From assembly GCA_937927915.1 (NCBI GenBank), contig CALGKB010000002.1:62001-126000 (forward strand): a stretch of DNA of 64,000 bases. Direction: 5' to 3'. The notes below the pieces were generated by a model. It did not search any database, was not told the origin of the DNA, and saw only the letters and a list, made by a program, of their open reading frames with translations. The translations under genes and the position numbers were made by a program. This DNA is from an uncultured Pseudanabaenaceae cyanobacterium. GTDB taxonomy: Bacteria; Cyanobacteriota; Cyanobacteriia; Pseudanabaenales; Pseudanabaenaceae. Each line of letters begins with the position of its first letter. Positions within the stretch are counted from its first letter, which is position 1. Of the stretch, positions 2,390-15,840 are shown in pieces.

Positions 2390-2420
2390 CCTATTGTGAT
2401 TGTTTAGGTGGCAACGGAAT

Positions 2421-5400
2421 ATGAGTAGTCGTGAGCAAAGCAGAGTACGCAAGTTCTATCTGTCCCTCCTCTCTGACCTGAGAAAGTGGTTAGTAAAGAT
2501 AGGTAGTCCCTTCCGCATCAGCCGCAAATTCATCCGCAACCTCATGCGCCGCGGAGCTACCCAAGCAGGTTTTATCTTGCCTACTGTTGTCTTTGTTACT
2601 CTGGCTACCACGCTATTAGTTTTAGGGGTAGTAGCTCGATCGGCAGACCGTGCCCAGACTGCCGCCAACGCAAGAGTGGAGCAGGTATTTGAAGTAGCAA
2701 ACTCTGCTGTAATTGACCGTGCCAGATCGAAGCTTGAATTACTACTCAACGATGACACTTTACCACGCACGACACCACCAGAAGGAATTTTGCAGCAAGT
2801 GATCAGCAGCGGTAAGTACACTTATCCTGATGAAACTAGGCTGCAGATAGTAGAAGACTTTGCCACCACAGACACAGCTACAGATTCTCTCATAACAACC
2901 TCTGCTAATGGCAGTCCCGATGGAAAGATAAGGGTCACCGATAGTGACCTTATCGACCAAGAGTTCCACAAAAATGTGTGGAAGTTTCCCATCGATACAG
3001 ATGGCAATGGTAAATTTGATAGTTACGGTATTTACAGCATCATCTTCCGCACTAGACCACCAGAGTTGGCAGATGGTAAACCAAACCCTAACGATCGGCG
3101 GGTGACTACTCTAGAGGCACCTACCTTACCCTTCGATGAGACAGGTCTATCGGGTCGCTGCCAAGGCGTAGTAGGTGTAACGGTAGCAACTAATGAGGGT
3201 TGGACGCAAAGGGGCAACAAACTCAAGAAGGCATTTTTTGTCCACGCTGTAACTGTACCGATTACTGACCCTGACACTTTTCCACCGGATGCTGGTGACA
3301 GGTTTGAAACTTTTCGGGGTATACCTTCTATAAGTGCCCTAGAGCTACAACAAGACCGTGCCCGTACTCCCACTAACAACACAGCCGCATGGTTCGAAGG
3401 AGATATGGAAGTAGCTCGCCCCGCTCGCTTCCGCTTTAACGGCAGAATCTATGCTGGCGGCAACTTGATGATTGGTGCTATCAACAACGACAATCCGATC
3501 CAGTTCTATCAAGTCAGTAGCTCTGGCACTAGCCCAGCTAGTGAAAATACCCTAGGTTCTTGTTATTACGAACGAAATAACGCGGAAATCAACGTAGCAG
3601 GTAATGTAGTCGAGGGAGATGCTCTGACTACGGATACTGCTTTAGAGGGAGCAGTAGTTGATCTTTGGCAAGGACAAGGTGTTCAATTGCAGAGCAACCT
3701 CACCCCTGCTGGAGATCCAGATCAACCACCCCTCAACGATCTTAACCGCACAGTACAAAACACAGGAGCAGAAGCAACCCTGAATGAATTTGAGTACAAC
3801 CGTCGAGTTAATGTGCTGGTGAATGAAGCTCTGAGAAGAGCAACCCTAACAGGGATTGACCGATCGACAGGTGATATTCAATTAACCTACAGCTCAGGGG
3901 TAAAAGACCCTCCTTCTGTACAGTCTGACTTGATCAAGAGGATTCGTGATGAGGGCATCTTTGGAACAGGACCACTACTGACAAAGGCAAGAAGGGAGTC
4001 TTTGGAGGTATATTTCAAAGCAAGGGTGAGAAAAGTTCCCTACAAAGAAGTACCTTTTGGTTCTACACCAAGCGATCCCACTCCCCTGCTTACGCCTGTA
4101 CCTATTCCCGCTAGCGAGGGAGGCGGAGAGGACTTAGCACCACCCTTGCAGTGGGCTATACCTACTTATCTTAACCCTGGTGTCCTTAAGACCAACTCCG
4201 CAGGTACTAGTGCTACAGACTATGATGGCAACGGGGTTCTACAGGCACCTACAGCAAATGCCTTGACTCTGACTCCTCCCACTGGTAGTACCATGGTTTT
4301 ACCTTCCCTTGCTCCCGAAACCAGAGCAGCTAACCAAGACATAGAGAAGTTTATTGGTGATCGTGTGCGGGTAGGGAATGGCTTGCCTGCTTTGTACATA
4401 AAGAACCAGGGAGGCTCTGTCGGCTTTGTGGGAACGACTAATCAGAGCATAGTTTCCAACAACAACTCCATCAAGTTCAATGACCCCTCCAACCCTCCCA
4501 CACGCTACAGGGTGACTCGCTCCTTTGTTCTGGAAAACCTAGGAGAAACCGATCGGGGTGGTTTCTGGGAGTTGTCGGCAGCTGATGACCCTAGCAATGG
4601 CAATTCCCCTCCTAATCCCGTACCTATTACTGGTGGTCTGCGGGTAGTGACCAATGCAGGTATCTATAGTCCTCGTCCTGAATACACGTTTTTGCCACGC
4701 TTCCGTACAGGGCTGCCAGACAATACTTCTACTCCCGATATCGACGAATCTGCTGCGCCCCTATGGAATGGACAACCGATCGATAACCCCATCACCATAG
4801 ATGAAGATGACCCCCTGGCTCCTGTAAACGACGAGGCTGCAATTAGGGCAACAACCACGGCCAATCGCTGGGCACTTAACGAAGCTACCTTTGCTGCTCC
4901 TGACCCCACACCCAATGACGGCTTTAATGAGTTAAACTACGTAGTTTGGCCCGATTCGATGCCTATGACTGGGCAGATGCGGTTCTTCCCTGGTACCTAC
5001 ATCAACCCCCGCACAGGCGCTACTCAGAACGTTTCTGCTCCTGGCAATGAACCAGGTTGGTATCCTTTTGAGATCGATGACAACGGCAATATTATTCCTT
5101 ACGCGATCGGAGCTAATGGGCAGAAGGTAGAAGCAGCAGCCTCAACACCTGAAGACCGGGAGAGAGCAAGAAACTGGCGTGGTCACCTACAGATGCGGGC
5201 TTCTGCTATCTATCATTACAAATATGATGACTTTGACCCGGAAAAACTAACAGCATCATCCATCAGTGCAGATGTTTTCCAAAGACCTGTTGCCTGCGTG
5301 AGCAGTTACTATGATCCCACTACACCAGAAACTGCCAGAAATGCCCCTGGTTTGCTTTGGAATACAACAGACTATAACGGCAATCAACGCGGACGATCGA

Positions 5401-8400
5401 ACAACGGTATCGTCTACCCAGTACCAACTGAAACGGCAGCTAACATTGCAGGGGTGCCTAACTTTGATTTCACCACAGATAAGTTTGTAGTAACTGCTGA
5501 TGCCTCTAAGGTAAGAGATCGGAATGTCCCTCTTGTACAGCGTTTAGCGTATCAGGCTAACCTAGTATTTCCTAATGGCAGATTTGTCAATGAACCTCTG
5601 CGTAATGTCCTGCGACGTATTCAGGCAAGTCCTGGTAACAGTGCTCTATCAGCACGTTTGACTCTGGCAGAACAGTCCACCCTTGATGCGAACATCTGTG
5701 CTCTGCGCATTCTGGATGGTACCCTTACACCCCTGAACCAGCTAGCTCCTGTAGTCAATGGTGTAACAATTCCCCAGGGTACATTCAAAGAGGCTGCCTT
5801 CTTAGATGCCAGAGAGGTGAAAGCTCTGAATAAGAATGAGTCCTTACTGGAAGGTGTGTCTGGTTATGTTGCTGCGGATGGTAGTAGGAAAGGGTTGCTG
5901 GAGGTAGCCAACAATCGTGCTGACATCTATGACCTAGAAATAGAGCAGCGTCAGCCCCTGGAAGTGCGGACAACTGACTTAGATGTTGACCGTATGCGGG
6001 GAGCAACGGTAACGGGTCCTATCAATACCGGTGTACCGACAGAATATCTCTTGCCCTTCAGTGGGGTAGTGTATGCCACCAGGGAGGATGCCCTGCCGGA
6101 TATGAGTTACTTCGACTATGACAGTGCTAACAACCGTCCCTTCCCCACCTTGACATCTAAGCGGCGCGCTCTGAGTAGTACGGACTTCCGCCTGGACCCC
6201 ACTAGGAAGGTAGCAGGGATTCGGTTGATTAACGGTTACCGTATCTTCCGTTCCAGTCTGATTAACGCTAACCTGAACGATGTCACAGGTAATGTACTTG
6301 GTAACAGACCCACCTCTACTGAAACGCAGCTCAACTATAACGAGAATACGAAGGGTGAAAAGGGGATTATTCTAGTGTCGAACACTCCAGTGTATGTCAG
6401 GGCACAGAGAGACCCCTTCAACCCAAATAATGGCAGAATTGGCTTCAACGTCCATACCCAGGAAGAGTTTAGAACTGCTCTGGCTGCGGACTGGAGTAAC
6501 TTCTACAGCAGAATCAGGGGAGACCTTAACCCCAACTTTGCTTGCCGTCCTGGTCAGACTTCTACTTGTAATGAGGGGGATCAATGGCGACCTGCTACGG
6601 TAATTGCTGATGCTGTCACTATTCTGTCTGATCAATGGCGTGATGGCTATCGCAGTGATGGTGACTTTGATTTGCGCAATAACTCCAATACTTCTACCAG
6701 TGTCAACTGGATCAACACCCTCAACACTACCTCAGAGCAGCGCAAGGATAGCATTTATGTCGTAGAGCGCCGTAAGCAGGGCTTCTTTAACAATAACTTT
6801 GTCACCAACGCCAACTGGCTAGCACCTACCAATTCTGACAATCAAACGGGTACTCTCAGTGTCAACTATCCTGAAGGGAACTTGGCTTCCTACAACGGCA
6901 ATGGGGTGACTCCAGTGCAGAGACGGGGGTGGTTCCAAGAGTACAGTATGGACATTTGCCGTAAGGTGCCAGTGGAAGACTGCGGCTTTGATGATTGGGA
7001 AAAAATGGGTGGTGGTACAACTACGTTACCTAACTTTGGGGGTACTGTTTCTGCTGCCCAACCCTACGGTAACTCAGGCACCCCTGCTGGTTCACCTCGG
7101 TTCATCGCCCCTGAAGATACTCGTTTCCCACGGCGGGTCTCCTTCCTGCGTTACGACGACATCTATAGAGACGGCAATATGTCCTTGGTGTTTACCCAGC
7201 TCTGTGATGGTACAATGGCAAACTGGCAAGACCGTCAGGGGTGGCCCATTCCCATTGGTGTAGTGAATGGTAATAGTACAAGTGGTTATACCTATCCCCT
7301 GATCATGGGTGGTGGGTTTCAGGTGCCTTTCAGCGGGGAGAGCCGCGTGTCCTATGGAGATATTCCCTGCTCCCAGGTGGCAGTTATTGACATAGACGAG
7401 TCGCAAGATAAGTTAGAAGGGCGGCGGGCAAATGTTTTATACACTTCTACCCCTAATGTGCCCAATCCTCTGCCTACACCCACATTCAACACTATTACTG
7501 AGCCTGGTGGTACCACCGTACAGGTTGCAACTAATCTCGGTAATTTCCTCAATGATGACGCCAATCCACTGCCAACGGCGGAAAGAGCATTTCGACCCTT
7601 CTACGGCAGAGTTGCAGTGAGGAACATTGCAAAGGCACCTGCCAATATTATTGGAGCGAGGCTGACTTTCAGAGCACCAGGAACTAACACTAATCCAGGG
7701 AACTTTGGTAGCAACGCCCCTGAAGGTAATGGCTTGGGTACTGACCCAGTTAACATTGCTGGTACTGACTATATCCAGAAGTTCTATGTAGCTGACTCGC
7801 CCACAGGTGGAAACAGATGTTATATCTCTCAGGCTGCTGCTACTACAGGCACAGCTGCCAGTGCACTACCGCAGTATGCTGAAATTCCGAATGGGTCAAC
7901 AATTTATTTCAACAAGAATAGTTATGCACCTTGCCGATTCATGGTGCTGGTGACCAGGGACAATGCTAATGAAAATCCAGAGTATGTCAATATTAGGCTG
8001 GACAATGGCGTACCAACGGGAGTGAGTATAGGGAGTCCTGGGGGTATTGAGGATAATGAGAGCTTTGAAATTCAAATTGATTGGAATTGGACAAATGATA
8101 CAAACGAACCATTGCCAGGTACAGGCGCGATGACATTTGACCCGAATGTGTGTATGACTCCAGCCGAAAGGCCAGGACCTGTAATCATTAGGTATGAAAG
8201 GACTGGTACTATACTTTCAACGACGACTACAAATGAGATTAGAGATGACCGTGTAGTTACCATAACTAACCGTGTGTTTCAGATGCGTCCTGTACGAAAG
8301 GCAGACTGCAGCAGTGGTACCCCCAGTGCTCTCAAGCAACCCACGTTTGGGACATTGAAAACTCCTACCTACTCTATGGGGCAGAACTTAATGCCTGTGT

Positions 8401-10940
8401 CAGCTCTGTTGCCTACAGCAGCCGTGTATCCTTCTCCTTCTGCTACCTACCCCAATGTATGTAATGATCCTTCTACTAACCAACCTGTAGACACAGGAGG
8501 ATACAAATGCAATAACCTCGCAGATGGGCGACCTATTTTCCCGCAGTTAGTAGCGCCAAGAGCAAATGCTCTCAACTCTATCCTGCCTATGTTGCCTGGT
8601 ATGCGGACTAGCTTGCCTTCCCAATCGGATCGGACGCTGTGGTTCCGTACTATCAACAACAGTGATACGGTGATTGGGGCAGATGACAACATTGACTACC
8701 GCCAGGGTAGGCATTTGCTGATCTACAACCACTCTTGGCCCTTCTTGCGTGGTAGGGACGATGGCTCATATAGAGCTAATCTGAGTCATGGCAAGCGTCT
8801 ACAGTTACCAGAAACTGTATGCATTAGAACTGACGGTTTAGTAGATGAAAGATGCTTGGATCAGGGACGACCTGCCAATACATCAGACCCTGTGCAGGGA
8901 ACTGCCGCCGCTCCCAGTTACTTGGCTAATCTCAACTTGCCTTACAACCCGCACTTCCCAGCCGATCAGAGTATGCCGGGTAACAACCGCAACACAACCA
9001 ATACTCTTGCTTCTCGTCGGCGGGGGGTAGCTGACAACGTGGTGCAACCTGCTTCTTCCTTTGCTGTCTGTGGTATTACAGGTAACTCTCGTGCACTGCA
9101 GCTAGATGAGGGTGAGACCTCTGACTTTACTTCTGCAGGGGCGGGTGAAGTTTGCCCCAACTCAGTAAGGAATGTAATTGTGGACTTCTACAACAAGCTG
9201 ATGAACTTGACACCTGCTCCCGCTGGTACACCTGGTCATCCTAGGATTGAGGTTGAAAGAGGTGGTAAGCTAACTGACTTTACTGATGTGGTAAAGATCA
9301 CTGCTACCAATACCTTTGCCAACAATCGTGTCCATGTGATTGAGCTGCAAAATCTAGGTACTACTGCTGGGTCTGTTGTCAAACTAAGGGGGACACTGAG
9401 ATTGAGCGCTAACCGCGACAATATAGGAAGAAAGCGCGGTCCCAGTCCTGTGTTTATCTTCAGGGGTCCCAGGGATCGGGATGTAAGTATGGAGGGGCTA
9501 AAGGTCCAACTAGACGGTGTTGACCCCAATAACATCTTCTGGGTGTTCCCTCGCACGGGCAGGAAGGCTTTAACGATCGCGGGCGCATTGCCTAAGCCCA
9601 ATATTACTAACGATCCTGATAAAACTTCTATCTTGGTGGGGAACTTCATCGGCAATATGCCCAACAGCAGTACTGCTGCCAATGAGAGTAACACTTCCTA
9701 CCTCAACATTGGGTTGCTCCAAAATACGTCTCCCTTTAACCCCGTGGCTAATGGCAACTCTAACGGAGGCAGAGACTTGAGCAACAGTGACTACTTTGGT
9801 GTGACCTTCCGTGGGGTGAGGTTCTTGGGCTTCCGTGCTGACAAGAATGATAGCAATGCCAACGGTAGAGACCCCAGTAACTCTGACCACGGTATCGGTA
9901 TCAATCCCAACACGGTGGCAGCTGCTATGACTTCCGTGGATCAACCAGTACTACTCCCAGTCCTACAGCTTCATGCTCCTGCTAACACCAATACAAGTGT
10001 TTCCAGCCGAATGCCGGAATTTTCGCCAGGTTCCTATAACCCAAATGCTGCTAACATCCAGGTCTGCAGTATGAATGGTAGCCTAACCGATTGTCCCTCT
10101 AGCGTGCTTTCAGGTGGGTCTGGCTCTGGTGGGCAGTGGACAATGCGGGCAACGGCAACAACTAAGGCACCAGGTAGGATGAGTGATGCCAGTGCTAACC
10201 CAAGCCCTGTGGAAGTAAATATCTACTTTGTGGCTGGTAACTCCCCATCTCGATCGACTGTGCGATACAGGACATCGATTACCGCAAGGGTACCTGGCTT
10301 CGGTGTAACTCGAAACACAGAAGTATCAACAGCGGAGGTTACGGGGGGTCTGCCGAACTTTGTCCGCCTTTTGGAGAACTGGACAGGTGTAACCCTCAAG
10401 ATTACAGGTGGGTTCCTGCAAAACACTAGAAGCAAGATTGCCACAGGTCCTTTCTCCCAAACAGCACCCTACGCTACGACACAAACGGCAGCCCTCAATT
10501 ACGCCAGTGATATGCAGACTCTGTGGATTAACCGGTTCGATAACACCCGCGCAGATCAGGGGTTGAGTTCTTTCCGTCCCTTCCCTGCTTCGGTTACCTC
10601 TGAATCAATTCCTTACTACGCTCCCCCTGTACGGTTGTTTGGCTTCGATGTCGGGATTTTGACTCAGTCGGCTGACCTGTTCTCCTCCCGCTTTAGTCTT
10701 CCTATTGACAAACCTGATGAGTTCTTCCGCGAGACAGACCTGGATGATCCCTACATCAAGCAGTTAATGTGTGCCCTAGAGACTGATGACCCTGTAACCG
10801 ATCGGACTGGAGTGGGGGTACCTCCTAACAGATATAGACGTACTGTACTGCGTGGTAAAGACCAGCCGAAGGGTTGTGATAAGGTTACAGGTGTAGCTGG
10901 CTATACTCCCAGCGGGGCAGTGACTATCAACTACGAGTAG
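2421..10940 (+). CDS. hpsA: Giant HpsA-like pseudopilin (hormogonium polysaccharide secretion type)
   Basis: Very large pseudopilin-like protein (about 2,839 aa from the ATG at 2421; the ORF could start 7 codons earlier at a TTG). A basic leader of about 50 residues ends in 'QAGFILPTVVFV', a type III signal-peptide site (G/F cleavage) followed by one hydrophobic helix. The whole remainder is extracellular in prediction: Asn/Thr/Pro/Gly-rich, low in Lys, with dispersed cysteines. Position +5 after the cleavage site is Thr, not the conserved Glu. This is also true of GspK-type tip pseudopilins. The leader/helix pattern, followed by 'VIDRARSKLE', matches cyanobacterial HpsA, first defined in Nostoc punctiforme as a pseudopilin-like protein needed for hormogonium polysaccharide and motility. 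Three more prepilin-like genes follow in the same operon. Family membership is well supported. The assignment of a tip role is inference. Confidence 0.85.
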   Translation: MSSREQSRVRKFYLSLLSDLRKWLVKIGSPFRISRKFIRNLMRRGATQAGFILPTVVFVTLATTLLVLGVVARSADRAQTAANARVEQVFEVANSAVIDRARSKLELLLNDDTLPRTTPPEGILQQVISSGKYTYPDETRLQIVEDFATTDTATDSLITTSANGSPDGKIRVTDSDLIDQEFHKNVWKFPIDTDGNGKFDSYGIYSIIFRTRPPELADGKPNPNDRRVTTLEAPTLPFDETGLSGRCQGVVGVTVATNEGWTQRGNKLKKAFFVHAVTVPITDPDTFPPDAGDRFETFRGIPSISALELQQDRARTPTNNTAAWFEGDMEVARPARFRFNGRIYAGGNLMIGAINNDNPIQFYQVSSSGTSPASENTLGSCYYERNNAEINVAGNVVEGDALTTDTALEGAVVDLWQGQGVQLQSNLTPAGDPDQPPLNDLNRTVQNTGAEATLNEFEYNRRVNVLVNEALRRATLTGIDRSTGDIQLTYSSGVKDPPSVQSDLIKRIRDEGIFGTGPLLTKARRESLEVYFKARVRKVPYKEVPFGSTPSDPTPLLTPVPIPASEGGGEDLAPPLQWAIPTYLNPGVLKTNSAGTSATDYDGNGVLQAPTANALTLTPPTGSTMVLPSLAPETRAANQDIEKFIGDRVRVGNGLPALYIKNQGGSVGFVGTTNQSIVSNNNSIKFNDPSNPPTRYRVTRSFVLENLGETDRGGFWELSAADDPSNGNSPPNPVPITGGLRVVTNAGIYSPRPEYTFLPRFRTGLPDNTSTPDIDESAAPLWNGQPIDNPITIDEDDPLAPVNDEAAIRATTTANRWALNEATFAAPDPTPNDGFNELNYVVWPDSMPMTGQMRFFPGTYINPRTGATQNVSAPGNEPGWYPFEIDDNGNIIPYAIGANGQKVEAAASTPEDRERARNWRGHLQMRASAIYHYKYDDFDPEKLTASSISADVFQRPVACVSSYYDPTTPETARNAPGLLWNTTDYNGNQRGRSNNGIVYPVPTETAANIAGVPNFDFTTDKFVVTADASKVRDRNVPLVQRLAYQANLVFPNGRFVNEPLRNVLRRIQASPGNSALSARLTLAEQSTLDANICALRILDGTLTPLNQLAPVVNGVTIPQGTFKEAAFLDAREVKALNKNESLLEGVSGYVAADGSRKGLLEVANNRADIYDLEIEQRQPLEVRTTDLDVDRMRGATVTGPINTGVPTEYLLPFSGVVYATREDALPDMSYFDYDSANNRPFPTLTSKRRALSSTDFRLDPTRKVAGIRLINGYRIFRSSLINANLNDVTGNVLGNRPTSTETQLNYNENTKGEKGIILVSNTPVYVRAQRDPFNPNNGRIGFNVHTQEEFRTALAADWSNFYSRIRGDLNPNFACRPGQTSTCNEGDQWRPATVIADAVTILSDQWRDGYRSDGDFDLRNNSNTSTSVNWINTLNTTSEQRKDSIYVVERRKQGFFNNNFVTNANWLAPTNSDNQTGTLSVNYPEGNLASYNGNGVTPVQRRGWFQEYSMDICRKVPVEDCGFDDWEKMGGGTTTLPNFGGTVSAAQPYGNSGTPAGSPRFIAPEDTRFPRRVSFLRYDDIYRDGNMSLVFTQLCDGTMANWQDRQGWPIPIGVVNGNSTSGYTYPLIMGGGFQVPFSGESRVSYGDIPCSQVAVIDIDESQDKLEGRRANVLYTSTPNVPNPLPTPTFNTITEPGGTTVQVATNLGNFLNDDANPLPTAERAFRPFYGRVAVRNIAKAPANIIGARLTFRAPGTNTNPGNFGSNAPEGNGLGTDPVNIAGTDYIQKFYVADSPTGGNRCYISQAAATTGTAASALPQYAEIPNGSTIYFNKNSYAPCRFMVLVTRDNANENPEYVNIRLDNGVPTGVSIGSPGGIEDNESFEIQIDWNWTNDTNEPLPGTGAMTFDPNVCMTPAERPGPVIIRYERTGTILSTTTTNEIRDDRVVTITNRVFQMRPVRKADCSSGTPSALKQPTFGTLKTPTYSMGQNLMPVSALLPTAAVYPSPSATYPNVCNDPSTNQPVDTGGYKCNNLADGRPIFPQLVAPRANALNSILPMLPGMRTSLPSQSDRTLWFRTINNSDTVIGADDNIDYRQGRHLLIYNHSWPFLRGRDDGSYRANLSHGKRLQLPETVCIRTDGLVDERCLDQGRPANTSDPVQGTAAAPSYLANLNLPYNPHFPADQSMPGNNRNTTNTLASRRRGVADNVVQPASSFAVCGITGNSRALQLDEGETSDFTSAGAGEVCPNSVRNVIVDFYNKLMNLTPAPAGTPGHPRIEVERGGKLTDFTDVVKITATNTFANNRVHVIELQNLGTTAGSVVKLRGTLRLSANRDNIGRKRGPSPVFIFRGPRDRDVSMEGLKVQLDGVDPNNIFWVFPRTGRKALTIAGALPKPNITNDPDKTSILVGNFIGNMPNSSTAANESNTSYLNIGLLQNTSPFNPVANGNSNGGRDLSNSDYFGVTFRGVRFLGFRADKNDSNANGRDPSNSDHGIGINPNTVAAAMTSVDQPVLLPVLQLHAPANTNTSVSSRMPEFSPGSYNPNAANIQVCSMNGSLTDCPSSVLSGGSGSGGQWTMRATATTKAPGRMSDASANPSPVEVNIYFVAGNSPSRSTVRYRTSITARVPGFGVTRNTEVSTAEVTGGLPNFVRLLENWTGVTLKITGGFLQNTRSKIATGPFSQTAPYATTQTAALNYASDMQTLWINRFDNTRADQGLSSFRPFPASVTSESIPYYAPPVRLFGFDVGILTQSADLFSSRFSLPIDKPDEFFRETDLDDPYIKQLMCALETDDPVTDRTGVGVPPNRYRRTVLRGKDQPKGCDKVTGVAGYTPSGAVTINYE

Positions 10941-10951
10941 GGAGGTAACGT

Positions 10952-11659
10952 ATGTGGCAGTATAAATTTTTGCTCAGTAGGTCCAGTCCAGAAGGTGGTT
11001 TCAACCTAGTGGAAGCTTTGGTAGCAGTAATTGTGGTGGGTATCCTGGCAACAGCTACTCTTCCCCTATTCCTAATGTCGATCGGGTCAAGGGCGCAAGC
11101 ACGGCGGGTTGATCTGGCGAGTCAGGCGGGGCGATCTTACATCGACGCAGTACGATCGGGAGCTTTGACCGTAGCTGATCTTCCTAATAGTGGTCCCAAC
11201 AGACTGGTAACTCTCTACAGCAGCCCAGGTGTACCCATCAAAGATTTCGATACAATTCCTGCTCCAGACCCTGCAAACTATCTGGCTAGCACGAGCGGTC
11301 TGCGGGGAATCAGGATAGATGGCAATACGAACGGCTTTTCTGAGGGAGATTCCTATGATTTTGTCATCCAGCCTATGCGCACTAGGATTGTGCCCATACC
11401 TCCTGCCACGGACGAGCCAGCAAGCTTGGCTGACAGGGAAACAGCTTTGAGAAAGCAAGGGTTTACTATAGGAATACGGGTCTACCGTGCTGATGCCTTT
11501 AGCTTGCCTAGGCTTTACAGGGGTTCAGAACCTGCTTGCCAAAGAGGAAGGACTGTCTTTGGGCGTGGTTTGGGTAACCGTGCTTGTCCTGTAGTGACAA
11601 TGTGGGCACATATAGTTTCTGATGTTAACTCTGCAACAGTTCCCGAAAGTTTCAGATAG
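10952..11659 (+). CDS. hpsB: HpsB-like minor pseudopilin
   Basis: Prepilin-type protein of 235 aa. It starts at an ATG with a strong GGAGG Shine-Dalgarno sequence, 11 bp after hpsA. The N-terminal class III signal reads 'GGFNLVEALVAVIVVGILA': a short leader, Gly at -1, Phe at +1 and Glu at +5, then a hydrophobic helix and a soluble C-terminal domain with two cysteines near the end ('ACQRGRTVFG', 'NRACPVV'). The prepilin peptidase PilD is expected to cut and methylate it. Its place directly after the HpsA-like gene corresponds to hpsB of the Nostoc hps locus. Sequence alone supports 'GspI/PilV-like pseudopilin'. The HpsB name rests on synteny. Confidence 0.75.
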   Translation: MWQYKFLLSRSSPEGGFNLVEALVAVIVVGILATATLPLFLMSIGSRAQARRVDLASQAGRSYIDAVRSGALTVADLPNSGPNRLVTLYSSPGVPIKDFDTIPAPDPANYLASTSGLRGIRIDGNTNGFSEGDSYDFVIQPMRTRIVPIPPATDEPASLADRETALRKQGFTIGIRVYRADAFSLPRLYRGSEPACQRGRTVFGRGLGNRACPVVTMWAHIVSDVNSATVPESFR

Positions 11660-11672
11660 TGGAGGTGCTTCT

Positions 11673-12977
11673 GTGAAAAGACACATACAGCGGTTAATAG
11701 AATGGCGGCTTAAGCTCTCTAAACTTTCTCAGGTCAAGGGTTTCACCCTTATAGAGCTGCTGGTCGCCTCAATTATGGCAGGTATTATCGTCGCTGTTTT
11801 ACTTGCCTTCGTGGTAGAGATTCTGCAAAGCGATCGTCGGGAACAGGCAAAGTCAGATATGCAGATGGAATTGCAAGCTGCTCTTGATTTCATAGCCGAC
11901 GACCTCAAGCAAGCTGTCTACATCTATGATGCCGATGGCATAGAGAGAGATAGTAGCCAAAACCCCCCTGGTATCAGAGATCAGCTACCTGGTGTAACTG
12001 CAGAGCGTGTACCTGTGCTGGTATTTTGGAAACGGCATTACTACAATCCTAATGATGAGGTGGGCGTGGGTCCAGACGGTAGGGGAGCAGAGCCTAAGGA
12101 GCAGGTCAGGAAGATAGTCCTAGGAGTGGCAAATACGGAAAACACTCCCAATGGTCCCCAGAACGTCAATGAGCCAATTGGAGAGCCTAGGTATGTTTAT
12201 GCCTTGGTGGCGTATTATTTGCGTTCAAACAGAGGCGGTCAGGGACTAGTACGCGCAAATACAATGCAGATTGAGCGCATTGAGATTCGAGATGGCATCC
12301 GATCGGATTGTCAAAATGCTGAACCCGCTACCTGTCCGCTAACGCCTGCTCCAATAAAGAGAGTAAATGACATCAACTACTGGGTTGTTCCTGACCGAAA
12401 TTTCAGACGGTTTGACTTAACAGGAGTTGGTACTTTACGCGATCGGATGAACCGCTGGAGAAATGCGGGTCTTGGTTATGACTTAGGAGGGGTTAATCAA
12501 CCACAAGTCATCTTAGATTTTGTAGACGATACGATCTATACTCCTGCCCATGATGACTCTGACCCTAAGAATAGTCTGATTCATGTGCCAATTCGCCCGA
12601 ACAATGATCTAGGTGGCAATGTTAACAATTTCTTTAGCGATAACCCTGACTGCGCTGACCCTGTGATCGGAGTAGGCAGAAATCCACCCAATGGAGACAC
12701 AAATGGCGACAATAAAATAGATATAGCCACCCAAAGAATACCAGGGAGATTCGATACAAGTACGACTTTGTCCAGGGCTGATAACGCCAGTAGTTTCTTT
12801 GTCTGTGTTAACTCCATGCAGAATGTTGCTAGAGTCTATATAAGAGCTAATGCTCTAGCGCGTCTATCCCGCAACTATGCTGATCGTCGATTTGCTACTG
12901 GTCGTACCAATGAATCTAGTTTTTTGACGACATCCAGCATTAGGGCTTTTGCTCGTAGTTCTATCACACTGCCATAG
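11673..12977 (+). CDS. hpsC: HpsC-like minor pseudopilin
   Basis: Prepilin-type protein. The chosen start is GTG 11673, because a clear GGAGG box lies 7 nt upstream and it falls just after the previous stop. The ORF-track start at 11622 would overlap hpsB and has no such box. The class III signal is 'KGFTLIELLVASIMAGIIV' with Gly-1, Phe+1 and Glu+5, after a basic leader of about 25 residues. The following 'QAALDFIADDLKQAVYIYD' is typical of GspJ/PilW-type pseudopilins. The product is about 434 aa, long for a GspJ but similar in design to HpsC. It is the third gene of the pseudopilin operon. Confidence 0.75.
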   Translation: MKRHIQRLIEWRLKLSKLSQVKGFTLIELLVASIMAGIIVAVLLAFVVEILQSDRREQAKSDMQMELQAALDFIADDLKQAVYIYDADGIERDSSQNPPGIRDQLPGVTAERVPVLVFWKRHYYNPNDEVGVGPDGRGAEPKEQVRKIVLGVANTENTPNGPQNVNEPIGEPRYVYALVAYYLRSNRGGQGLVRANTMQIERIEIRDGIRSDCQNAEPATCPLTPAPIKRVNDINYWVVPDRNFRRFDLTGVGTLRDRMNRWRNAGLGYDLGGVNQPQVILDFVDDTIYTPAHDDSDPKNSLIHVPIRPNNDLGGNVNNFFSDNPDCADPVIGVGRNPPNGDTNGDNKIDIATQRIPGRFDTSTTLSRADNASSFFVCVNSMQNVARVYIRANALARLSRNYADRRFATGRTNESSFLTTSSIRAFARSSITLP

Positions 12978-12985
12978 GGGGGAGT

Positions 12986-13627
12986 ATGCTGAAATTTTTA
13001 TTGCCAAGGAGAGAGGGAACTGGTACCGCTACCAGCAAGGGATTTAGCTTAATTGAGTTGATTACGGTGGTGGTGATTGTTGGTATTCTTGCTGCTATTG
13101 TTTCGCCTAGCTACATATCTTTTCTCAATACAATGAGGATGAATAATGCCCAGAGCAGGGTTTTTTCTTCTATTAAGAAGGCGCAGAGTGAAGCTAGAAA
13201 GCTAAAAAGACCACATAGAATGTACATCAGAGTTAGCCCCACCACAAATAGAATTCAAACAGCTATCTTACCTATGTCTGACGCTGGCACATTTAGAACT
13301 GATATTGACAATGGGAATATTGACAATTTGAGTTGGGAAGATATTCCAGATAGCAGTGACTTATGGGTGGGTACAACTCAAGCCTCAGATATTCATTCTA
13401 AAGGTTCACAAAGGTACATTTGCATCGGGTTCAACGGTGATGGCACAATACACTTAGGAGTTGGGTGTATTAATCTCCACAACCGATTCATCATCATCAA
13501 ACCCCAAAGGAGTGGCAGTAAAAAAGTTCGCTGCATTAGAATTTCCACTATTCTAGGTTCAATCTCTATGTTCAGAGAGGGAGAAGCAGATGGATGTAAA
13601 GATCCCGGAGAAGCAAATACCTTGTAG
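12986..13627 (+). CDS. hpsD: HpsD-like / GspH-type pseudopilin
   Basis: Fourth pseudopilin of the operon, 213 aa, starting at ATG 12986 behind a GGGGGGAG box 8 bp after hpsC. The class III signal 'KGFSLIELITVVVIVGILAA' has Gly-1, Phe+1 and Glu+5. The helix continues into 'ARKLKR', and the soluble part has the GspH/FimT look (about 180 residues, cysteines 'CIGF', 'GCIN', 'CIRI', 'GCKD'). It corresponds by position to hpsD. The 3' end touches the remains of an epimerase gene on the other strand. No glycosyltransferase genes of the hpsE-G type follow. Confidence 0.72.
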   Translation: MLKFLLPRREGTGTATSKGFSLIELITVVVIVGILAAIVSPSYISFLNTMRMNNAQSRVFSSIKKAQSEARKLKRPHRMYIRVSPTTNRIQTAILPMSDAGTFRTDIDNGNIDNLSWEDIPDSSDLWVGTTQASDIHSKGSQRYICIGFNGDGTIHLGVGCINLHNRFIIIKPQRSGSKKVRCIRISTILGSISMFREGEADGCKDPGEANTL

Positions 13628-14256: not shown

Positions 14257-14661
14257 CTAAAGGGTGGCGAGGGGTTCGGGTTGCCATACTTCGCCGTAGG
14301 TTGCTCTTAGTTGCTGCCAATGCTCGATCTGCCCTGGGGCATATTCCCCTGGCTTACCCCACTGCAAAAAGATACTGAGGTCGGGTTCTCCCTGCTCATT
14401 TAATAGGCGAATGGCGTAGGTAGGAAAATTGCCCCGCTTTGCCTGCCCCTGCTCAAACTTGACGGTTTTGATACGATCGATATTGAGATGAAATTCAAAA
14501 TCCTCTGTGTGCATATTAGCGTATTTGCCCTGGGGGAGTTCCGCATAGTATAATTTCTGGATCACTGTGCGCACCTCTAGGACTGCCCCCCCGTTGGTAC
14601 AAATCAAGCGCACCAAACCCAAGTCTGTACAGGATTCCAGAAACGATTTGAGGTTAGCCAT
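14257..14661 (-). CDS. ChuX/HutX-like small cyanobacterial protein
   Basis: 134-residue soluble protein beginning 'MANLKSFLESCTDLGLVRLI' and containing 'EDFEFHLNIDRIKTVKFEQG' and 'LSIFLQWGKPGEYAPGQIEHW'. This matches my memory of a conserved cyanobacterial family usually annotated as ChuX/HutX heme-like substrate-binding protein, in which the W-G-K-P-G-E segment is well kept. No heme-binding residue can be assigned with certainty and no heme-uptake genes are adjacent, so the function is open. It is divergent from recA with 72 bp between the starts. Confidence 0.6.
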   Translation of the reverse strand: MANLKSFLESCTDLGLVRLICTNGGAVLEVRTVIQKLYYAELPQGKYANMHTEDFEFHLNIDRIKTVKFEQGQAKRGNFPTYAIRLLNEQGEPDLSIFLQWGKPGEYAPGQIEHWQQLRATYGEVWQPEPLATL

Positions 14662-14733: not shown

Positions 14734-15840
14734 ATGGCACGCCCTGTCTCCAAAAATTCTACTCCCCCTAAGGAACCAGAGCATAACGATCGGCAAAAAG
14801 CCCTCAACCAAGTCCTAGAAAAAATTGAGAAGGAGTTTGGCAAGGGGGCTATCATGCGCCTTGGTGACGCCAAGCAGTTGGTGGTAGAAACGGTGTCCAG
14901 CGGTGCCCTGACCCTAGACTTAGCCCTAGGGGGGGGGTATCCCAAGGGGCGCATTGTAGAAATCTACGGACCCGAAAGTTCCGGTAAAACTACCCTAGTC
15001 CTGCACGCCATCGCGGAAGTCCAGCGCCAGGGGGGCACAGCAGCCTTTGTAGATGCGGAACACGCCCTCGACCCCCTCTATGCCGAACGTCTGGGAGTGG
15101 ATGTGGCAAATCTCATCGTCTCCCAACCGGACAACGGCGAAATGGCACTAGAAATTGTCGACCAACTGGTGCGATCGATGGCGGTGGACATAATTGCGGT
15201 GGATTCCGTAGCGGCGTTGGTGCCCAGGGCAGAAATTGAGGGGGAGATGGGGGATTCCCATGTAGGCTTGCAGGCGCGCTTGATGAGCCAGGCATTGCGC
15301 AAAATTACGGGGAATATCGCCCAATCTAACTGTATTGTTGTGTTTTTGAACCAGCTCAGGCAAAAGATCGGTGCTATGGGCTACGGTCCCAATGAAACAA
15401 CGACGGGGGGCACTGCCCTCAAGTTCTATGCCTCCGTACGCCTGGACATCCGCCGCAAAGAGACCCTGAAAAAAGGCAACGAAGAATACGGCATCAGGGT
15501 GAGGGTGAAGGTGGCGAAAAACAAAGTTGCTCCTCCCTTCCGCATCGCTGAATTTGACATCATTTTTGGCAAGGGGATTTCCACCAAGGGCTGCATCTTG
15601 GACTTGGCAGAGGAGTTGAAGATCGTCACCCGCAAAGGGGCTTGGTATAGTTACAAGGGGGAAAATATCGCCCAGGGCAGAGACAATACCATAAAATTTC
15701 TGGAAACTAACCCTGAAGTATGTCAAGAGATTGAAAACCTCCTGCGGGAACAAATTAGCGCCGGGGCGACTATCTCTGTCACCAAAACCAGTACGGAAGA
15801 CGAAGAAGCAGAAAATGAGGAACTACCAGAGGAGTTCTAA
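14734..15840 (+). CDS. recA: RecA recombinase
   Basis: RecA, the ATP-dependent strand-exchange protein of homologous recombination, 368 aa, near the usual cyanobacterial length. Visible motifs are Walker A 'GPESSGKTT', Walker B '[10 protein letters not shown]', loop L1 '[12 protein letters not shown]', the Q-containing '[10 protein letters not shown]' and loop L2 '[19 protein letters not shown]', followed by the conserved 'RLDIRR'. The C-terminal tail is acidic ('[16 protein letters not shown]'), as in other RecA proteins. No clear LexA-type palindrome is visible in the 72 bp upstream. The stop overlaps the downstream HAD gene by 26 bp. Confidence 0.97.

Follow-up and report, generated by a model that had tools for sequence, protein, structure and literature searches.

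We analysed a window of 64,000 nucleotides from the genome of an uncultured Pseudanabaenaceae cyanobacterium (contig CALGKB010000002.1), in which four adjacent genes on the + strand (positions 2421-13627), hpsA to hpsD, all encode proteins with a class III (prepilin peptidase) signal. Our conclusion is that HpsA-D probably constitute the core minor-pilin (priming/tip) complex of a single type IV pilus, with HpsA as its giant PilX/GspK-type cap. HpsA has been called a hypothetical membrane protein (PMC6495340) and a protein of unknown function (PMC4284469), and a 2025 review finds it difficult to decide which of the minor pilins of cyanobacteria are broadly conserved and which might belong to a tip complex (PMC12288463). 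With HpsA tied to pilins of the PilA12 and PilX types, and with no minor pilin other than HpsA-D detected in this genome, there is a concrete four-protein tip candidate, and the resemblance of the HpsA family to a type IV pilus tip protein makes the cyanobacterial pilus tip testable. If true, there would also be a simple account of the connection between the hps pseudopilins and polysaccharide export, as pili may fail to form when the tip complex is missing.

The hps genes and residue 5 of HpsA

The features of the locus are listed below; residues of mature HpsA are counted from the Gly of G^FILPT (window position 2568) and E denotes the expectation value.

2421-10940, +: hpsA, putative K/PilX-type minor pilin without Glu5, assigned by NCBIfam model NF038301 (1133.4 bits, curated cut-off 400), motif and length
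2568-2747, +: class III cleavage site G^FILPT of HpsA and N-terminal helix of about 57 residues (type IV pilin alpha1); motif in 127 orthologues, helix at 3-59 in the AlphaFold2 (AF2) model of a short orthologue
2748-7246, +: core ectodomain (mature residues 61-1560), present in every HpsA; two blocks within it are common to PilA12-type and Deinococcus PilX-type proteins
7247-10246, +: lineage-specific HpsA insert (Pseudanabaenaceae) of about 950-1000 residues, N/T/S/P/G-rich, with one beta-rich stretch and otherwise no fold resolved
10247-10937, +: conserved C-terminal HpsA block GGLPNFVRLLENW..GGFLQ..YYAPPVRLFGFDVG, common to PilA12-type and Deinococcus proteins
10952-11659, +: hpsB, minor pilin with Glu5 and a PilV/GspI-type N-terminus (NF038303, 113 bits, E 1.4e-32, under the cut-off of 150)
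11622-12977, +: hpsC, minor pilin with Glu5 (NF038304, 242 bits, above the cut-off of 200) and weak J-type matches (gspJ TIGR01711, E 6.2e-5, and ComGF)
12986-13627, +: hpsD-like minor pilin with Glu5 and a GspG/GspH-type N-terminus (TIGR01710, E 2.4e-8; TIGR01708, E 9.3e-7; TIGR02532, 28.9 bits)

The open reading frame of HpsA (2400-10940, +) gives 2,846 residues from a TTG start at 2400 and 2,839 from an ATG start at 2421. Its class III motif, ATQAG^FILPTVVFV, has Pro4 and Thr at +5, and Glu is found at +5 in HpsB (GG^FNLVE), HpsC (KG^FTLIE) and HpsD (KG^FSLIE). The motifs thus confirm the original prediction, made from this DNA alone, of four consecutive class III-signal genes with Thr5 in HpsA and Glu5 in the other three. 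The best match of HpsB outside the Hps families is PilV (TIGR02523, E 5.5e-5); the fourth protein matches none of the NCBIfam Hps models and is 29% identical to a Nostocales HpsD (E 3e-12). The order hpsA-B-C-D, with an identical +5 pattern, is kept in nearly every hpsA locus examined, so the four-gene arrangement is not a matter of chance. Neither tandem repeats in the hps genes nor an internal duplication in HpsA were found, and a promoter and terminator scan of the locus gave a signal no higher than that of shuffled sequence.

HpsA is present in 110 of the 386 cyanobacterial genomes surveyed, in 86 of them above the curated cut-off. The survey loci were pooled with a scan of named genomes, which gave 127 distinct HpsA N-termini: residue 5 is Thr in 122 of these, Val in three, Met in one, Leu in one, and never Glu. 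As the motif search fixed Pro4 and left residue 5 free, the conservation of Pro4 is partly by construction. The loci missed by the motif, inspected in part, comprise contigs that are cut off, a frameshifted copy still reading GFVLPT, and copies reading GFVFPT and GFLLPT; no Glu5 was seen among those inspected. A real exception is the HpsA of Planktothrix rubescens (L111, L071), an open frame without a recognisable class III N-terminus. Glu5 is likewise missing from PilX and GspK (PMC7541494). The missing Glu5 is an ordinary trait of the HpsA family and not a peculiarity, and the orthologue of equal size with Glu5 that had been named as an argument against a tip protein does not occur among the 127.

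A few loci deserve separate mention. One genome (G385, locus L049) has an hpsA broken by many in-frame stops, with GFxxxE pilin genes still nearby, and another (G005, contig C93, locus L001) has two full-length hpsA copies about 5 kb apart on the same contig. An extra GFxxxE pseudopilin lies 3' of hpsD in several relatives (L031, L033, L037, L060), other Pseudanabaenaceae included, and is missing in the window.

Kinship with PilA12-type and PilX-type pilins

A profile built from 62 HpsA proteins was searched against two plasmid loci that had been located via the C-terminal block of HpsA. Three collinear stretches, set apart from one another, were matched in an 812-residue protein from a minor-pilin cluster of Picosynechococcus; the profile also matched a Deinococcus PilX_N-domain protein together with the next open reading frame in a three-pilin cluster. 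Reversed and shuffled controls gave no match. Full-length relatives of the Picosynechococcus protein, about 800-940 residues long, occur in 13 of the 386 genomes, and none of these 13, all with a strong match, has an HpsA above the cut-off. We call these proteins PilA12-type, a label that equates them with Synechocystis Slr2018/PilA12 by gene order and size. Like HpsA, they have no Glu5 (GYVLVxA); the FYxAEAxLN motif familiar from PilX and GspK is present in them. A comparison of HpsA-only with PilA12-only profiles gave collinear blocks at E 1.7e-17 and 1e-9 and a weak third one, and nothing with the reversed control; the independent HpsA model of NCBIfam matches all ten PilA12-type proteins to which it was compared (best E 5.6e-21). 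Of the Pfam families, PilX_N (PF14341) is matched by the largest number of HpsA N-termini, 9 of 39 with a best E of 6.6e-4. By sequence, HpsA is homologous to a PilX_N-type pilin of Deinococcus as well as to the PilA12/Slr2018-type proteins, and both kinds are encoded in minor-pilin clusters.

The PilA9-PilA10-PilA11-PilA12/Slr2018 operon of Synechocystis and relatives has, like hps, three pilins and one large protein without Glu5, in which blocks of HpsA recur in collinear order. There are differences as well: the large protein is the last in the operon, has only about 800-940 residues, and keeps the classical FYxAEAxLN motif. The pilA9-pilA11-slr2018 operon is required for motility and flocculation (PMC5924778, PMC7690835). 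The HpsA-D proteins of filamentous cyanobacteria (NF038301, NF038303, NF038304) are another close counterpart, with the same genes, order and signals and with Pro4-Thr5 in HpsA. The window differs from them in having the insert typical of Pseudanabaenaceae, in that hpsEFG are not linked to the locus, and in that HpsB falls under the cut-off of its model.

We speculate that HpsA and PilA12 might be one cyanobacteria-wide family of tip pilins in which a single giant subunit unites a PilX cap with an adhesin like PilY1, so that PilY1 would be dispensable and lineage-specific inserts would tune what the gliding filament grips. This idea is tentative and we consider it somewhat doubtful. No PilY1 was found in the 386 genomes, a weak negative as no control genome was matched either.

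A probable single pilus with one set of minor pilins

The source genome is small and 98.9% complete, and was examined by targeted searches. Models of the GFxxxE signal find only four proteins above threshold, one PilA and HpsB, HpsC and HpsD. There is one PilD, which the original prediction had proposed to look for elsewhere in the genome and which adjoins the one pilMNOQ set; pilB-pilT-pilC are located elsewhere, and further PilB/PilT-type ATPases are present. With one PilA, one PilD, one pilMNOQ set and HpsB-D as the only other GFxxxE pilins found, HpsA-D are more likely part of an ordinary type IV pilus, and the separate polysaccharide-associated pilus suggested in the original prediction is not supported. 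The minor-pilin count for this pilus is four, the same as in the core set FimU-PilV-PilW-PilX, where the tip position is assigned to PilX, a pilin without Glu5 (PMC7541494). The FimU-PilV-PilW-PilX (H-I-J-K) genes are also four co-directional class III pilin genes in which only the K/PilX member is without Glu5, even though HpsA is far larger than either PilX or GspK.

A different role was first proposed for Nostoc, namely that HpsA-D make up a pseudopilus of their own, which is distinct from the motility pilus and serves to expel hormogonium-type polysaccharide. We regard this as unlikely here. It would agree with the glycosyltransferases that lie 3' of hpsA-D in a Nostocales locus, and with a second secretin-domain protein in the source genome (680 residues, apart from pilMNOQ; G000:C9:51260-51772; L168 7258-9300). 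Against it, no second major pseudopilin or second PilD was detected in the source genome, and the operon of the PilA12-type relatives serves motility and flocculation. The glycosyltransferase genes themselves speak in the same direction: none similar to hpsE, hpsF or hpsG was found in the window at E 1e-8, and beside hpsA they are missing from every one of the 17 Pseudanabaenaceae loci other than that of the window and from 50 of the 66 remaining long loci, counts that are inflated by short flanks. The best HpsE match in the source genome has 31% identity over a part of the protein and is no clear orthologue. The absence of glycosyltransferase genes next to hpsA-D, noted in the original prediction, is the norm of the lineage, and we rejected it as a peculiarity of the window.

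In the tip complex that we favour, HpsD would correspond to H/FimU, HpsB to I/PilV, HpsC to J/PilW and HpsA to K/PilX. PilD would cleave all four proteins after Gly, and HpsA-D would then assemble as a complex. Glu5 is the residue that pairs a pilin with the subunit above it; as HpsA is without it, HpsA would be inserted first and would cap the pilus. The ectodomain of HpsA, which is very large and ends in the conserved C-terminal block, would pass through PilQ to the pilus tip, where HpsA would act as an adhesin gripping a surface or polysaccharide. The earlier view of HpsA as the largest of the four and the K/PilX-type member without Glu5 is supported by the 127 N-termini and by the weak matches of HpsB-D to I-, J- and G/H-type models.

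Several points weigh against this assignment. The H, I and J types are drawn from short N-terminal matches, and PilX_N gives no match to the HpsA of the window itself. Models of the signal motif can overlook divergent pilins, and HpsA itself was overlooked by them. A Foldseek search of the AF2 model of the shortest complete HpsA (L078, 1,167 residues) against the PDB gave nothing significant; Thermus ComZ came sixth with E 1.6 and a template modelling (TM) score of at most 0.06, which is no evidence, and profile searches against the PDB found no relative. Finally, the Nostoc literature links hpsA-D to polysaccharide secretion.

Size and architecture of HpsA

The L078 model is confident, with a predicted local distance difference test score (pLDDT) of 86 and a predicted TM score (pTM) of 0.87. 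It has a pilin-like N-terminal helix of 57 residues and long strands; numerous short strands make up the body, and a pair of long ones lies at the C-terminus. This layout, in which the DSSP assignment places many short strands between long ones, seems to resemble the plan of Thermus ComZ, a solenoid inserted in the pilin sheet (PMC6561018). ComZ (PDB 6QVI) also has a large domain on a GspK-like pilin, a proposed position at the tip, and a gene beside those of minor pilins (PMC6561018). Unlike HpsA, ComZ binds DNA, and the two have neither a detectable sequence relation nor a significant fold match. By analogy, HpsA may work like GspK or ComZ.

The model of the insert and C-terminus of the window HpsA is of low confidence (pLDDT 41.8). 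This, together with a composition rich in N/T/S/P/G as in stalks and the failure to match any solved GspK-like fold, would fit a surface adhesin that is anchored in the inner membrane or borne along the pilus shaft, its pilin-type N-terminus being a mere tether and not a tip cap. We find this very improbable, given the consistent loss of Glu5, the conserved operon with Glu5 partners and the homology to PilX_N-type proteins; in addition, a subunit of about 300 kDa could hardly be accommodated inside the shaft, a steric argument made for ComZ (PMC6561018).

The mature HpsA of the window has 2,790 residues, about 1.7 times the median of complete HpsAs (about 1,634), and the original prediction had remarked on its large size. 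The length comparison shows this size to be ordinary for the lineage: complete HpsAs of Pseudanabaenaceae, strains and metagenome-assembled genomes of which are its nearest named relatives, have 2,467-3,216 mature residues, and size was rejected as a peculiarity of the window. In the alignment, the core (1-1560) and the C-terminal block (2560-2760) are common to all HpsA, and the roughly 950 residues between them are common to the Pseudanabaenaceae proteins at about 37% identity. It is this insert that accounts for the excess over the median. Two HpsAs of another family (L034, L035) reach 2,416-2,474 residues independently.

As for the neighbouring genes, a multi-span membrane protein of at most 230 residues, without a Pfam or NCBIfam match, is encoded on the same strand 45 bases upstream of hpsA (1663-2355, +). 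On the other side, a ChuX/HutX-type haem-utilisation protein (14257-14661, -; PF06228, E 1.8e-10) adjoins recA (14734-15840).
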